The position numbers were made by a program, and so were the translations under genes. Positions 4,749 through 57,103 of a stretch of DNA of 64,000 nucleotides are shown in pieces. Location: assembly GCA_025786725.1 (NCBI GenBank), contig JAHLTZ010000039.1, positions 62,001-126,000 of the forward strand. The letters are read 5' to 3'. Under the pieces are notes generated by a model, which saw nothing but the letters and a program-made list of their open reading frames with translations, was not told where the DNA came from and made no database searches. This DNA comes from Syncephalis fuscata. Its lineage: Eukaryota > Zoopagomycota > Zoopagomycetes > Zoopagales > Piptocephalidaceae. The number at the start of each line of letters is the position of its first letter. Position 1 is the first letter of the stretch.

Positions 4749-6973
4749 CAAATCAATATCACCGTAAAGCTTTCTATTGCCGTCATCTGCATCATCGTTG
4801 TAGCTTTGGTTGCCACTACCGCCATGGTAGATGCTATGCCAACTCGAGTTCGTCGTGGTATGTTTTGGTCATAACAACTATGCGAATTGACTTGATAACT
4901 AACATTGTACTCCCAATGATGACATCAGACGGTAAGGCTTAAGTATGTATTATTGTCCTAGTACTTACTGTACCATATCGTAAACACCATGAACACTATG
5001 AAAACACGCAAACAGCCAGCACGTTTAGCATAGAACAATAGATTAAATCTCTTTATAATATTAACATCTTTAATTTACATTAACAGGAGGTAAATCACAA
5101 CGACAACAATTAATTAAATGGCTGACTATATATTGTGTATTATCAACTAACATTATTAGCTGGTAAGTGAAACTGTATATTGATTAACTGTAAATTAAAC
5201 ATATATGTCATGGAATATTTGTGTTTAACAAATTGTATTAACAGATCGTAAGTGATATTGCATATTGCTTAACTATACACTAAGGATATGCTGTGTGCTG
5301 TTTGCATTTAATAAACCGTACTAATAGCTGGTGACATTTTGTATTGATTAATATACACCAAATATATTCTTTTATATGCGTGTTCAACAACTTGTATTAA
5401 TAGATAGTAAGTGATGTTTGTGTACTACTTAACTATGCATTAAACCGTGTGTTTAATAAATTGCATTAATAGAAAGTAATGCCATTGTATATTAATTGAC
5501 AACTCATAAACATACATGTATTCTGTTTATATTTAATTGAGTTGTATTATAAGATGGTAAGACATTGTGTGCTGATTATCTACATACTAAACATATGCGT
5601 TTGATGTTACGTGTACCTAATATATTATTAATAGGCTGTAGGTAAAGGTTTACTTAATTAACTATACACTAAGCATATGCTATGCATTATTTGTATTTAA
5701 TGACTTGGATTAATAGCTGCTAAGTGGAATCTTATAGTTAACTGTACACTAAACATATACCACGTACTATGTATGTTTCTACATTTGTGTTTAATAGAAA
5801 GTAAGTGCCATTGTGTATTAGTTGGATAGACACTAAACTTATGTTATACATTTGGTGTTTAACAACTTGCACCAATAGCTCGTAAGTGCCATTGTATACT
5901 AGTTCACTAGACATTAAATATGCATCATGCTACATACATGTCTAATAGCTTGCATTATAGCCAGTAAGTGGCACCCTATGTTGATTGGTTATATATTAAT
6001 TATACACTATGCACCGTGTATATTTGACAATCTGTATTAATAGTCAGTAAGTGAGCTTATATTGCAGTCAGCCATAAACTAATTACACGTACTATGCAAT
6101 GTTTATATTTGAGCATTGTATTAATAGGCCGTAAGTGGTGTTTTATACAAATCAACTATCTGTTAAGCATATGTAATGCACCATTTATTCTCACAATTTG
6201 CATTAGTAGCGGGTAAGTGGCACTATCTATTAGTAACTACATATTAATAATATATTATATAATTTCTTGCTTGATAACATGTGTTAACAGGACGTAAGTA
6301 ATATTTTATGGTATTTAATTATACACTAAACCTATATTATTATACATATATGTCTTATAACTTGTCTTGACAGCTGGTAGGTGATATTTTAGATCGATTA
6401 ACTACAAACTAAGCATATGTCATGTGTGCTGTATGCTTGACAACTTGTATTAATAAAAAGTAAGTGGCATAGTATACTGACTGACTATCTATTAAAATCT
6501 GGTATGCACCATGTGGATTAATAACCTGTATTGATAGGACGTAAACGCCATTATATATTAATAACTAGACACTGGATCCGTATCGTGATATATGTATACT
6601 AACATGTATTATAGTCAGTAAGAAATACTTGTAAATTGATTAACTATAAATTAAACACATGCCATGTATTCTGTACGTGCAATAACTTGAATAATAGGCA
6701 GTAAGTGAGACTGTATAATAATTAACTATACACTAAACATCTATTATGCATTATGCGTGTGTTCAATAACTTGCATTAGTAGGTCGTAAGTAACACTATG
6801 TATTAGTTAACTATACACTAAATATATGCTATACAATGCTTGTGTTTAATAGCTCATAACATGTAAGTGAAATTATATATTATTGAGTTGTAGGCTAGCG
6901 CTATGGCATGTACTATGTTTATTTATACTATAGGATAACCAGTACATGCAAGACATTAGCATTCGTAGTGTAA
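4749..6973 (+). CDS. Candidate secreted-peptide gene with ~24 three-base micro-exons (hypothesis)
   Basis: Exon 1 (open from 4749 to 4857) encodes KLSIAVICIIVVALVATTA then MVDAMPTRVRR: a hydrophobic signal-peptide core followed by an RVRR kexin/furin-type site. It ends at a GTATGT donor in phase 1. The intron 4858-4928 has a clear CTAAC branch site and CAG acceptor. From there a series of three-base segments, each bounded by AG before and GT after, runs to 6785. A ten-base exon (6853-6862) and a terminal exon (6934-6973, stop TAA) follow. Read in the phase set by exon 1, the triplets contain no stop; the product starts DARADPDKNG and ends TCKTLAFVV. The third possible phase has several stops. 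Problems: no ATG lies in frame between the upstream stop (4746) and the hydrophobic segment; triplet 5016 lacks a GT donor, 5717 lacks a GT donor and 6457 lacks an AG acceptor. Skipping any triplet keeps the frame. Function unknown. Confidence 0.45.
4858..6933 (+). repeat. Tandem array of ~82-bp intron-like units with AG-NNN-GT junctions
   Basis: About 25 diverged units. Donor-like GTAAGT motifs occur at 4932, 5090, 5163, 5248, 5331, 5407, 5476, 5557, 5638, 5811, 5882, 5964, 6047, 6131, 6213, 6294, 6377, 6460, 6541, 6618, 6701, 6786 and 6863, with degenerate ones at 5019 and 5720. Each is preceded by exactly three bases and then by an ATTAATAG-like acceptor. Spacing is 69-92 bp, mostly 81-84. 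A mid-unit TTAACTATACACTAAAC-like segment resembles a branch site. The triplets are acg, cca, gag, ctg, atc, ctg, ata, aaa, atg, gct, ctg, aaa, ctc, cca, tca, gcc, cgg, gac, ctg, aaa, gac, tca, gca, gtc: 38 of 72 bases are G or C, against strongly AT-rich spacers. 21 of 24 have both AG and GT intact. Confidence 0.9.
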
Positions 6974-7276: not shown

Positions 7277-9504
7277 TTAGAAAATTAAGGGCTCGATAAA
7301 ATTGGATGGAAATTGACCACGCCGTATTCCATTGTTACTTTCAATCTCGCCTTCCCACCAGCCGTCTAACTGAGTTGTTATTACGCGAATAATCTCTCCT
7401 TCCTTAAATGACATTTCTTCTTCCATAGTGGCATCGTAGTCGTATATAGCTCTTACTACAATGATATAAATAGTTAATTACATTGCCAGCGCTATTTATT
7501 ATGTAAGCTTACCTAGAAATCCTTCTTTTTCTGTGCCGCCAGTTGCTGATGGAGCACCAGAGGTTTGACCGCCCATTGGAGGTTGCATTGTTGATGCGCC
7601 CGATGGTATTGTTGCTGTCAATGTTGCTGCTGCTGCTGTTGCTGCTGCTGCTGGTGGTGGTGGTGCTGGTGCCATTGATGGATTTGATGGTGCATTGGCA
7701 TAAACCTCAGGTTGTTTACCTGATTCAGGTGACGTTTGTTGTACCTATTCAAAGTTTAATAAAGTAAAGTAAAAGTAATTAGTACTCACTGTAGTATTGG
7801 TGGCGGGTATAGCAGGATTGGGTGCCTGATGTGGATAGCCTGCTGGTGTAGCAGCTATACCAGCAGGTGTGTTTTGTGATATTGGTCGTTGTTGCTGTTG
7901 CTGTGGTGGTGGTGGAGGGTAAGTCTGCCCTTGAGGTGGATGAGCATTATTGTATACTTGCTCCTCAGGTCGATTAATTTGTCCATGATTATAGTCACCG
8001 CCAGGTGCAGACATAGAATTGTGAGGATGTGATGGTGTGGTATTTGGATAATTATATCCCATAGCTGTTGGTGGTGCACTCACTGGTGGTATCTTTACAA
8101 AGTAATTAGTACAGTTCAATTTTAACGACTAAAGCTTACTAAATGAGTAATTAGTATTAGCAGCTAATTTATTCAATTCAATCATTTGACTTACCCGCAT
8201 TAATCCCTTTAAGCTCAACAAATGTTGCAATATCATGGTCAATATCGCATTGTTCCAAAGACTGACGAACCCGTTCAAATGACTAGATATTACATTTGCA
8301 ACTATTAGACAATTTATTAAACACCATATCGGTCACATTACCTCATCGTCGGTCACACATACACCGGCAAAGATGTTTGCGTAATTCCAGAATATATTTC
8401 GTAAAAATTCAATTCGCTCCTCTTCCATGATTTGGAATTTCTATTCATTATTGTAATATTAATAATAATACACACATCATTTACTAACGCTCTTACATCG
8501 CATGCTTGTCGCCAGTCATTGTCAAAACGTTGAGTAACAGACTGTAGTTTCTCGCATGCCTCCTGATACTCTAATTCTATAATACCGTATAATAAATAGA
8601 TTGTAAGTTATGTCATTTCGTATTATATACTATAACCAACCTGGATTCCGTCCTGAACTATTGCCCTGACCAATCATGTTTAATTTGCTCATCATCTAAT
8701 TTCGCGGTTTGTAGGCATTCATACTATAGATATGCTACTTACCCCTGACGAACGCTGAGGTGCCATGCCATTGGCCCGCATATACTCTGCTTCGTAGCGT
8801 TCTTTGGCCTAATAACACAATATCCATGGTAATATTAGCTAACCATCCTCTATTTAAAGTACTTCATTTACCTTATGCATAGAAGCTGTATGGAGTGCTT
8901 TAGTTCGCATACTACGCTCGATAACTGCTGTGTGCTGTATCATTGCTTACAAATGAGCCCATGCCGTTCTACAACATTCTAATTGACCTACACTTTTACG
9001 CTGTTCCTTTTGTGTGGCCAAAAACGCAATAGTCGTTTGTTCTAGCTCACTGCGAATCAACGCGGCCAATTCCAAGTGAGAACGGCCGACAAATTCCATT
9101 TCATTTCTAATACTTCCTAACGAACTTTGCACAGTTCTATTATACATCTATTAGCTAAATTTGACTAGCTGTATTATCCACTGCTTGCCCTGTTTCCTCC
9201 CGTCCAAGTGATGCCTTGGAAAGTTTAAGTAGTTTTTTACCATACTCTTCCTCAATACTGGCTCTATTTCCCTGCATCAGTAATTGTTCAACGCCCTTGG
9301 TCCAAGCCTTACCGCTGAGCAAACATATTCTGTACCTGGACCACTGTCTGTTTTGCTTGGCGCAATTTATTCATTAAAATCTCTACACCCTGGTCATCCT
9401 TGTCCTATGGTCGTACAGCAGGTGGTTAGAACGCGTGTGCATCATTCGGTATAGCCACTCACGTAGAAGGCCGTGGCGAACGAAGCCGAAGACACCACCG
9501 ACAT
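7277..9504 (-). CDS. F-BAR and SH3 domain protein (PCH family, PSTPIP/Cdc15/Hof1-like)
   Basis: Members bind and bend membranes and link them to actin, often at the cytokinetic ring or endocytic sites. Read from ATG at 9504 (MSVVSSASFATAFY). The F-BAR domain follows: DKDDQGVEILMNKLRQAKQT, AWTKGVEQLLMQGNRASIEE, EEYGKKLLKLSKASLG, then LGSIRNEMEFVGRSHLELAA and MEEERIEFLRNIFWNYANIF. A Pro/Gln/Ala-rich low-complexity linker (about 7560-8110, with polyglutamine and polyproline) leads to a C-terminal SH3 domain (AIYDYDATMEEEMSFKEGE, WWEGEI, FPSNFIEPL). Around ten short introns interrupt it. The order F-BAR, disordered linker, SH3 is the classic PCH layout; which subfamily it belongs to cannot be decided by eye. 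Transcribed divergently from the capping-enzyme gene, with 1.6 kb between starts. Confidence 0.87.
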
Positions 9505-55477: not shown

Positions 55478-57103
55478 CAGTCGCTAAATTTAATTTTATT
55501 AATTTTATTTAATAAATAAAATCTATCGTAATGTCTACTAAACTATTTAAAAAAGCTATATTTAACAGTATTAAAAAACTGAGAGCCGCTATTGACAAGT
55601 TTAAGCTTGTTAACAGTTGCAATTTTAATAGAAAAATAGTGATTCAACAAGATTACAACTTATTTGTCCTCATGAAGACCGTTCCAGCAACAAATGCCAG
55701 TTTGTTTTAACTGCCAAAAAGCGGAAAATCGGCTTATTAAAAATTGTTTAATGCAATATTAAACATTTTAATGGTTGTTTATATGATTCTGGTAATGATA
55801 CTATTAAATCTATTATTAAATATATTACAAGTGGTGTCGCTATATTCTCAAATGTAAAATCAACAGATGTACGAATAAAAGTATCAAATTATGTACACAT
55901 TTAATTATTTAATATACAATAACAATTGCAATAGCTTAATAGATGCTATTATTTCTTACTACAAAGCTTGTTCTGCTCTTAATTTAATGGAAAAGAATAA
56001 TATTAACAGCAATATTAATTCTTTTTCATTTATTAAATATTACTTTATCAAATTTGAACATTTTAATCCGGATTCTGTTCAGCACTTCTTGCAAAACCAG
56101 TCTGGTAATTTTGAAAATGCATTTTTATGTCATTTATCATTTATTAAAGCTTGCCAGTATACCCGTAAAGTACTGGTAATTGATGGTTGCCATTTAAGGT
56201 TTTCTTATGGCGGTGTTGCTGTTGCTGCCGTTGTTAAAGATGGAAATAATAATATTTTACCTTTGGTTGTTGCTATAGTATTTCATAAAAATGAAAACAA
56301 CTGGGTCTATTTCCTTAAACGTTTAGCAGATTCAGTACCTGAATTAAGTATTCACAAGCTCAAGGATTGTTAACTAATAATAGCTATTTTTTGTATAAAT
56401 CAACATTAACTGACATCAATAACTATATAGTTGATGATTATTCTGATACCAAATTTCAAATTAAAACTACTAATTTTGAAGAATTGTGGTTTTTTATTAA
56501 ATGAGTTTATTAATAAATCTTACACCATTGATTATTCAAACAAATTATATGCTCCAGAAATTTGCCTGGTTGAAATAGAGTCAATTACTGCGGATATTTT
56601 GTGTTTGCCACCGAAAATAACGAAGAAAACCGGTAGACCGAGAGTTAAAAGAATTAGATGTTATAGTAAAGCTTTGCAGACCACCAACGATATACTTGTC
56701 GCAACTGTAGCTCAAAAGGACACAATACAAGAACATGCGCTGTAAACACTAGCATGAATAACATTGAAACAAACATCTTTATTGAAAAGCAAATACAAAC
56801 TACTAATGAAACAGCTATAAAGAAAAGAGAGCGTGTTATTAAAAAATGTTTAATTTGTGGTAAACGTCATTACAAGAAAACAAAGTGTGGAGCAAACAAA
56901 AAATAATTTTATTAATAAATAGTTTTAATCAATTTTAAAAAAGAAAAATTTATTATAGTGAAATTAAAAAACAGTGTATTTCTTAATTTCCTTAAATTAA
57001 AAGTTATATTTATTTTATAAAAAATAGAAAAAAGTAAAATTAGAAATTTAAAAAGTATTTTTGTAATTAAAAGCAAAAAACAGTGTATTTTCCAAAATTG
57101 CCC
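55478..57103 (+). mobile_element. MULE transposon copy 2 (right terminus, transposase remnant)
   Basis: Transposase-derived region from 55531 matches copy 1 almost base for base. The DDE core is longer here: KVLVIDGCHLRFSYGGVAVA, VVKDGNNNILPLVVAIVF, NNWVYFLKRLADS, then a C-terminal part ending with the CLICGKRHYKKTKC zinc knuckle. A shared frame break near 55668 and a stop near 55748 interrupt the N-terminal part, so activity is doubtful unless these are sequence errors. The right end carries AAAAACAGTGTATT motifs at about 56967 and 57076 and the right terminal inverted repeat ending at 57103; the left terminal repeat is absent. Confidence 0.85.

Follow-up and report, generated by a model that had tools for sequence, protein, structure and literature searches.

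Organization of the array in the window

The window analyzed here is a stretch of 64,000 nucleotides from the genome of Syncephalis fuscata (Zoopagales; 29 Mb in 299 contigs), a parasite of other fungi. Its forward strand carries a row of units in which an acceptor-like AG and a donor-like GT are separated by exactly three bases, as located by pattern matching and reading by eye (Table 1). The original prediction had reported 24 consecutive units of this kind with both dinucleotides intact in 21, and both counts are confirmed at the positions listed. Unit length is variable, as had been claimed, but a recount gives a spacing of 69–85 bp instead of 69–92 bp, the sole exception being a double-length gap of 158 bp between the first two triplets; the G+C content of the triplets is 37 of 72 bases, where 38 had been given.

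The peptide encoded by exon 1 of related genes matches window positions 4764–4859 with 78% identity and no stops (tblastn), and by this leader and its units the window copy is a member of the gene family described below. Exon 1 of the relatives starts with ATG, whereas the first codon of the window leader is not ATG. The final exon resembles, by eye, the final exons of the relatives, and either reading of its start (Table 1) implies that the frame stops immediately. The missing ATG of the signal-peptide frame and the broken dinucleotides in 3 of the 24 units make the copy in the window a probable relic, a family member that has decayed or is decaying. A tblastn match to the leader on another contig (C298), with a score equal to that of the window, could be a second copy.

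Several other features were observed in the window (Table 1). The two adjoining open reading frames (ORFs) that match LAG1-DNAbind and BTD would, as a CSL-type transcription factor gene, occupy at least two exons, and the 773-codon ORF encodes what we take to be a Crinkler-type or NTPase effector-like protein. An Rfam search of the window and of four other array loci (L035, L043, L045 and L049) gave nothing above gathering scores, and no tRNAs were found in the window with bacterial settings. For the class I aldolase encoded in the window, the best identity among the matches listed, its own record aside, is 84%, to Syncephalis plumigaleata.

Table 1. Features of the array copy and of its surroundings, in window positions.
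Feature	Position	Strand	Remarks
Putative signal-peptide exon (exon 1)	4764..4857	+	Ends one base into a codon; without the initiator ATG of relatives
First intron	4858..4928	+	GTATGT...CATCAG; donor as after exon 1 in relatives
Array of 24 putative three-base exons and intron spacers	4929..6862	+	AG and GT both intact in 21 of 24 units
Triplets 1–12	4929, 5087, 5160, 5245, 5328, 5404, 5473, 5554, 5635, 5717, 5798, 5879	+	
Triplets 13–24	5961, 6044, 6128, 6210, 6291, 6374, 6457, 6538, 6615, 6698, 6783, 6860	+	
Broken-donor unit	5717..5721	+	CTG, then CTAAGT (donor CT)
Broken-acceptor unit (triplet 6457)	6455..6459	+	AATAA before AAA
Last, degenerate unit (triplet 6860)	6853..6862	+	CTCATAACAT before GTAAGTG; acceptor lost or 10-base exon
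Start of final exon	6934..6938	+	After TTTATTTATACTATAG; GA then TAA, or TGA across the junction after CAT
Tandem repeat	29420..29482		Perfect 29-bp repeat, 2.2 copies; unit has donor-like GGTAAGTA; outside the array
Two adjoining ORFs	42643..44857	+	Match LAG1-DNAbind and BTD
Repeat in AT-rich stretch	48913..49539		334-bp unit, 1.9 copies, 85% matches
ORF of 773 codons	52376..54697	+	No Pfam match
ORF	55879..56373	+	Sub-threshold match to MULE transposase

Genome-wide distribution and splice-site character of the units

The pattern AATAG-N3-GTAAGTG occurs 1,390 times in the genome, compared to 4 matches of a reversed-pattern control. The same motifs separated by zero to two bases give 33 matches (control 15), and separations of 4–33 bases give 311 over thirty gap lengths (control 219). 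Thus, the three-base gap is special genome-wide, and the observation made in the window is far beyond chance. The original prediction implied a single gene; the array is instead one of many in the genome.

Twenty-six further stretches around arrays were taken from the listed pattern matches and are therefore not a random sample; all loci examined were picked for arrays or for the family leader exon. These stretches and the window hold 28 arrays of 8–83 units each, amounting to 789 units, 263 of which match the strict pattern. Scaling by this share gives a rough estimate of ∼4,200 units in the genome.

Putative exons and introns were chained into gene models using one fixed cost per exon, exons of at most 60 bases and introns of 40–110 bases, with four near-duplicate loci left out. 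With site models that had been trained on units with a three-base gap, 404 of the 422 internal exons of these chains have three bases and 3 have six, the six-base exons recurring at a similar place in several genes; 12 have 54–56 bases (mostly skipped units) and 3 are of other lengths. Introns in the models range from 56 to 107 nt. In a set of 498 sites, selected for the presence of YAG and GT, the consensus is GTAAGT for the donor and AATAG for the acceptor, and occasional GC donors are found among the array introns. The array introns appear to have normal U2-type GT-AG ends. Long runs of three-base exons are hard for a normal spliceosome, which would speak for removal of the spacers by other means, such as DNA elimination or another kind of RNA processing. 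We give this next to no credence, as the spacers carry GTAAGT donors, AATAG acceptors and the occasional GC donors, and we know of no such elimination in fungi.

A leader exon of defined phase

Of 29 array runs, 18 are preceded by an ATG-started hydrophobic leader whose GT donor follows the first base of a codon (phase 1); this count includes near-duplicate loci. One further run has a weak phase-2 candidate, while no signal-peptide exon was found upstream of the other 10. A typical leader reads MKLSIAVVCTIVVA...VDAxPxxVRR, in which the predicted signal peptide (MKLSIAVVC...VDA) was judged by hydropathy only. A tblastn search of the genome with the leader gave 336 candidate places, of which 150 matches were scored, that of the window among them; no internal stop is present among the matches listed.

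Reading frame of the joined triplets

To assess a possible message in the triplets, those of uninterrupted runs were concatenated and read in three frames, and the results were compared with shuffles of exon order within runs. The first set consisted of 469 exons from 17 loci, after near-duplicates (L031, L034, L036 and L041) had been dropped. It contains 3, 33 and 1 stops at offsets 0, 1 and 2, compared to shuffle expectations of 37.9 at offset 1 and 17.2 ± 3.0 at offset 2. The latter offset corresponds to phase-1 introns, where a codon consists of the last base of one exon and the first two of the next. Six held-out loci (171 exons), which include the related copies L052 and L055 (∼91% identical over 3.5 kb), have 1 stop in the phase-1-intron frame compared to 7.6 ± 2.1 expected (P 0.0004). 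The phase of the leader exon is the one that the stop test demands, and the leader thus serves as an independent anchor.

In a pooled set of 606 exons in 51 runs, with five near-duplicate loci dropped, joins between adjacent exons give 2 stops compared to 25.1 expected, and 50 Cys codons compared to 26.3 expected; the two remaining stops lie near array ends (L043 and L056). Genome-wide pattern counts agree. Among 1,963 pairs of adjacent units, 608 first triplets end in T and 277 second triplets start with AA or GA, and 5 TAA or TGA junction stops are found compared to 85.8 expected; of the five, two appear to be copies of a single locus. The Fisher P-value of about 1e-40 for this deficit is overstated, because the units are related by duplication.

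The avoidance of stops is confined to consecutive joins. When exons are skipped, joins of exon i to i+2, i+3, i+4 and i+5 give 27, 24, 21 and 15 stops, compared to 23.2, 21.3, 19.8 and 18.4 expected. Cys codons in the joins to i+2, i+3 and i+4 are at or below expectation; a small excess at i+5 (26 compared to 19.5, P 0.04) counts against the coding interpretation favored here. To our knowledge, no non-coding cause would tie the last base of a triplet to the next triplet, ∼80 bases on, and not to the one that follows it. These data also bear on the proposal that alternative splicing is extensive, with any subset of exons skippable and a combinatorial repertoire of peptides as the result. Internal exons are nearly all symmetric, such that skipping would keep the frame; however, stop numbers at about the chance level in joins that skip one to four exons indicate that selection has not acted on skipped products, and we regard the proposal as unlikely.

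A further alternative is a tandem repeat of minisatellite type, with splice-like motifs that arose by chance and triplets that carry no message. The units are indeed homologous repeats, and block duplications exist (L050). The constancy of the gap despite drifting unit length had been offered as an argument against a repeat, which does not hold on its own, since a gap inherited with its repeat unit would look the same. What argues strongly against a minisatellite is that stops are avoided in consecutive joins only and in one frame, repeatedly so in the held-out loci and genome-wide, that this frame fits the phase of exon 1, and that peptides of this kind are also encoded by two paralogs that have no introns (see below). 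We therefore consider a minisatellite exceedingly unlikely.

Two other readings of the triplets were tried and dropped. One, our first, took them as hydrophobic codons. The other was frame 0, in which each triplet is a whole codon and where the 3 stops in 469 exons compare to 12.1 expected by column shuffle. The exon-order test selects the phase-1-intron frame, and exon 1 ends in that phase. We attribute the scarcity of frame-0 stops to limits set by splicing, as AATAG followed by TAA or TGA creates a GTAAGT or GTGAGT sequence that would compete as a donor. Among the 1,390 triplets of the strict pattern, TAA occurs 0 times, TAG once, TGA 7 times and TGG 3 times.

Taken together, the stop deficit and Cys excess of adjacent joins, the agreement of the held-out loci, the phase of the leader and the intron-less paralogs show, at the level of sequence, that the triplets behave as coding sequence in which each is joined to its neighbor, in order and within a single frame. 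For the gene family, the original idea of a gene composed of three-base exons thus has strong support from the stop avoidance and Cys enrichment in a single frame, from the signal-peptide exon of matching phase in 18 of 29 runs, and from the two intron-less paralogs with a similar Cys pattern. The term “single-codon exons” does not apply strictly, since a triplet would straddle a codon boundary, its first two bases completing one codon and its third opening another.

Intron-less paralogs and predicted peptides

Of three further leader loci with long open frames that were examined, one (L059) is an array. The other two (L057 and L058) are intron-less: leader, Arg-Arg, a six-Cys peptide and a stop lie in one exon, followed by the 3' flank of the array genes. 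The Cys pattern of L057 is C-x2-C-x3-C-x9-C-x3-C-x5-C. When the array of L032 (34 short exons) is spliced on paper, the product has the pattern C-x2-C-x3-C-x9-C-x3-C-x8-C; the predicted Cys spacings of the array gene and the intron-less gene would thus be nearly the same.

A six-Cys peptide results from 6 of 16 leader-anchored array models, those of L032, L035, L036, L045, L052 and L054, including the near-duplicates L035 and L036. The L035 model has 40 exons of three bases and one of six, and the L052 model relies on several weak sites. Five of the six end in a stop; the last exon chosen in L054 runs on, and an alternative acceptor that would soon give a stop is visible. For five of the six, exon-order shuffles are open and have as many Cys in just 0.01–2% of cases. 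Among the ten models that do not give a six-Cys product, six chained just 1–6 exons, those of L037 and L055 have open products with 3 and 4 Cys, and those of L040 and L056 hit stops.

Two public S. fuscata proteins, viewed as protein sequences only, are of a kind like L057 and L058: P0121 has 6 Cys, and P0126 has 8 Cys and no Arg-Arg. A signal peptide, a dibasic pro-site and an even Cys framework are combined in L057, L058, P0121 and six of the 16 array models. Richness in Cys is not shared by some other members, such as P0129, L049 and the window copy, and the leader appears to be used for more than one kind of peptide. In its protein sequence, P0129 has the family leader and several KR sites but no Cys framework.

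All 10 family protein matches listed are S. fuscata records. Four family proteins gave nothing above cut-off against Pfam (one sub-threshold match), and the L057 peptide had no match to PDB by sequence at E 5. An AlphaFold prediction of P0126 from two sequences has two helices in the mature part and a mean pLDDT of 58.6, which is too weak for conclusions. The C-terminal part of another public S. fuscata protein, P0122, looks like translated array introns (tblastn), and P0124 resembles P0122 by eye. The family is probably misannotated in public data.

Divergence between copies, within arrays and in the flanks

We compared four pairs of near-identical gene copies. Acceptors (the last five intron bases) are changed at 0 of 590 sites, compared to 118 changes at 8,970 other intron sites (P 0.0008), with a slight bias toward acceptor conservation, as units were chosen by a pattern for which the first copy must have its acceptor. 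Donors changed at 5 of 826 sites and are not significantly more conserved than introns (P 0.10). Triplets changed at 6 of 354 sites, at a rate similar to that of the introns (P 0.48). A fifth pair, L052/L055, is more diverged and gappy and was left out; it has 5 changes in 122 acceptor sites, 2 in 163 donor sites, 201 in 1,859 intron sites and 19 in 73 triplet sites. The counts of the four close pairs indicate that acceptors are constrained and that triplets are not unusually mutable, such that hypermutable triplets, toward which L052/L055 would point, are unsupported.

It is conceivable that the family was once functional and that most present copies are relics that are not productively spliced. 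The window copy, with no ATG and with broken units, is probably of this kind; other arrays show weak sites, missing sites or the lack of any signal exon that we could find; and between young copies triplets change about as fast as introns. However, relics would accumulate junction stops and acceptor changes alike, and both are rare: 5 stops in 1,963 adjacent pairs and no changed acceptor in the four close pairs, although L052/L055 has the acceptor changes noted above. It is thus very unlikely that most copies are relics.

Within arrays, the relation between introns and triplets is different. Where the introns of two units differ by 3–7%, their triplets differ at 40–67% of sites; where intron identity reaches 98% or more, the figure for the triplets is 10–17%, although such unit pairs are not independent. 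Triplet divergence within arrays is far above that of the introns, and simple unit duplication is no explanation. Whole units do duplicate, as in the block duplications of L050 and in one extra codon of L036 compared to L035. Since units duplicate and yet triplets diverge, either conversion may homogenize introns while selection keeps the codons, or introns may be copied into place. The strict three-base spacing favors descent from one ancestral unit, because intron insertion alone would not need it.

Flanks of up to ∼2 kb are homologous among ten loci (L031, L032, L035, L036, L042, L045, L048, L053, L054 and L056), mostly at 75–88%, and possibly reflect segmental duplication. Direct repeats of 173–518 bp flank the arrays in L032, L035, L036, L042 and L048 and are 98.8% identical in L035. 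An LTR or other mobile element was considered and rejected, as the repeat ends differ between the four direct-repeat loci inspected; consistent TG...CA ends were not seen in these four. No obvious shared flank gene is present among ORFs of at least 90 codons in 14 loci.

Proposed gene architecture and comparison with known systems

We consider it highly probable, as read from the DNA, that the array belongs to a large S. fuscata family that encodes small secreted peptides, at least some of them Cys-rich, in consecutive three-base exons. Exon 1 would encode a signal peptide followed by a short pro-piece, in most cases with Arg-Arg at its end (likely a Kex2 site), and would break off one base into a codon. 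Three-base exons in a run, with a rare one of six bases, would then carry the mature peptide, with GT-AG introns of ∼60–90 bases between them and a short last exon that supplies the stop. The spliceosomal introns are probably removed one after another, because U1 and the 3' splice-site factors cannot fit simultaneously on an exon of three bases. Each step would add one codon's worth to the upstream exon and present the next donor, which would amount to recursive splicing that leaves a codon. The peptide would be secreted, cut free after the dibasic site and often stabilized by disulfides.

Unequal exchange between intron repeats could add or delete whole codons in frame. A more far-reaching proposal, which in our judgment has an even chance of being correct, is that this is a diversity-generating family. 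In that case, the intron repeats would act as recombination handles, codons would be inserted, deleted or moved without frameshift, introns would be homogenized or copied from unit to unit, and the spliceosome would join up to ∼80 three-base exons in order.

Genes built of runs of three-base exons would be categorically new. The original prediction knew of no described array of consecutive 3-nt exons, and we found none either, nor such a feature in Syncephalis, in the titles and abstract openings of the matches listed from the open-access PMC literature. The splicing of very small exons is regarded as difficult and as dependent on special help. Such splicing is nevertheless described as possible for 1-nt exons of APC11 and VPS55 in plants and for 3-nt exons in Drosophila (PMC8831610, PMC8042270), and very small exons are spliced in the RPS24 microexon cluster. 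These examples are single exons or clusters of about three, in contrast to the whole coding regions of S. fuscata.

A further near likeness in exon structure is that to the micro-exon genes (MEGs) of Schistosoma, which are summarized as encoding secreted proteins in many consecutive tiny exons, mostly multiples of three, and as being hard for annotation pipelines (PMC10526429). The same source gives 10–20 exons per gene, exons of 6–81 bp (3–81 is also given) with a majority of 15 bp, and introns of 0.1–5 kb. As in MEGs, the coding region of the S. fuscata arrays would consist mostly of many short symmetric exons, and the product has a predicted signal peptide (by hydropathy only). Unlike in MEGs, nearly all internal exons would have exactly 3 bp, up to ∼80 consecutively, and the introns are mostly 60–90 bp and repeats of one another, in a fungus. 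There is no flatworm lineage or homology, as the family matches listed are all from S. fuscata.

Ratchet steps in recursive splicing leave no sequence or skippable sequence, unlike the step proposed here, which would leave three bases of product. Nor do the units resemble a zero-length ratchet exon, with AG directly before GT, the gap in S. fuscata being three and gaps of zero to two bases giving just the 33 genome-wide matches (control 15) noted above. In outline, recursive splicing is described as removal in steps, where each joined site re-creates the 5' splice site that is used next (PMC6224609, PMC6110457). Introners are described as near-identical intron copies at many positions (PMC9860276, PMC4457414); neither Syncephalis nor any Zoopag* term is present in the main text of PMC9860276. 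Unlike introners, which are scattered among many genes at unrelated sites, the S. fuscata copies are in tandem, three bases apart.

The bicycle genes of aphids, which encode insect effectors, have small exons that are larger than those of S. fuscata, and we know of no three-base exons in them. They are presented as fast-evolving putative effectors that were recognized by their unusual gene structure (PMC9168663).

If the proposed architecture, with its thousands of three-base exons in series, is correct, a spliceosome is able to build up a reading frame in steps of three bases, and the family would be a natural system for studying splicing order and recursive splicing. At least one public gene model, that of P0122, has the look of array introns in translation, which suggests that genes of this kind are overlooked by gene predictors. 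For the fungus itself, secreted peptides could evolve by insertion and deletion of whole codons, and we would guess that these peptides serve in attacking or handling the fungal host.
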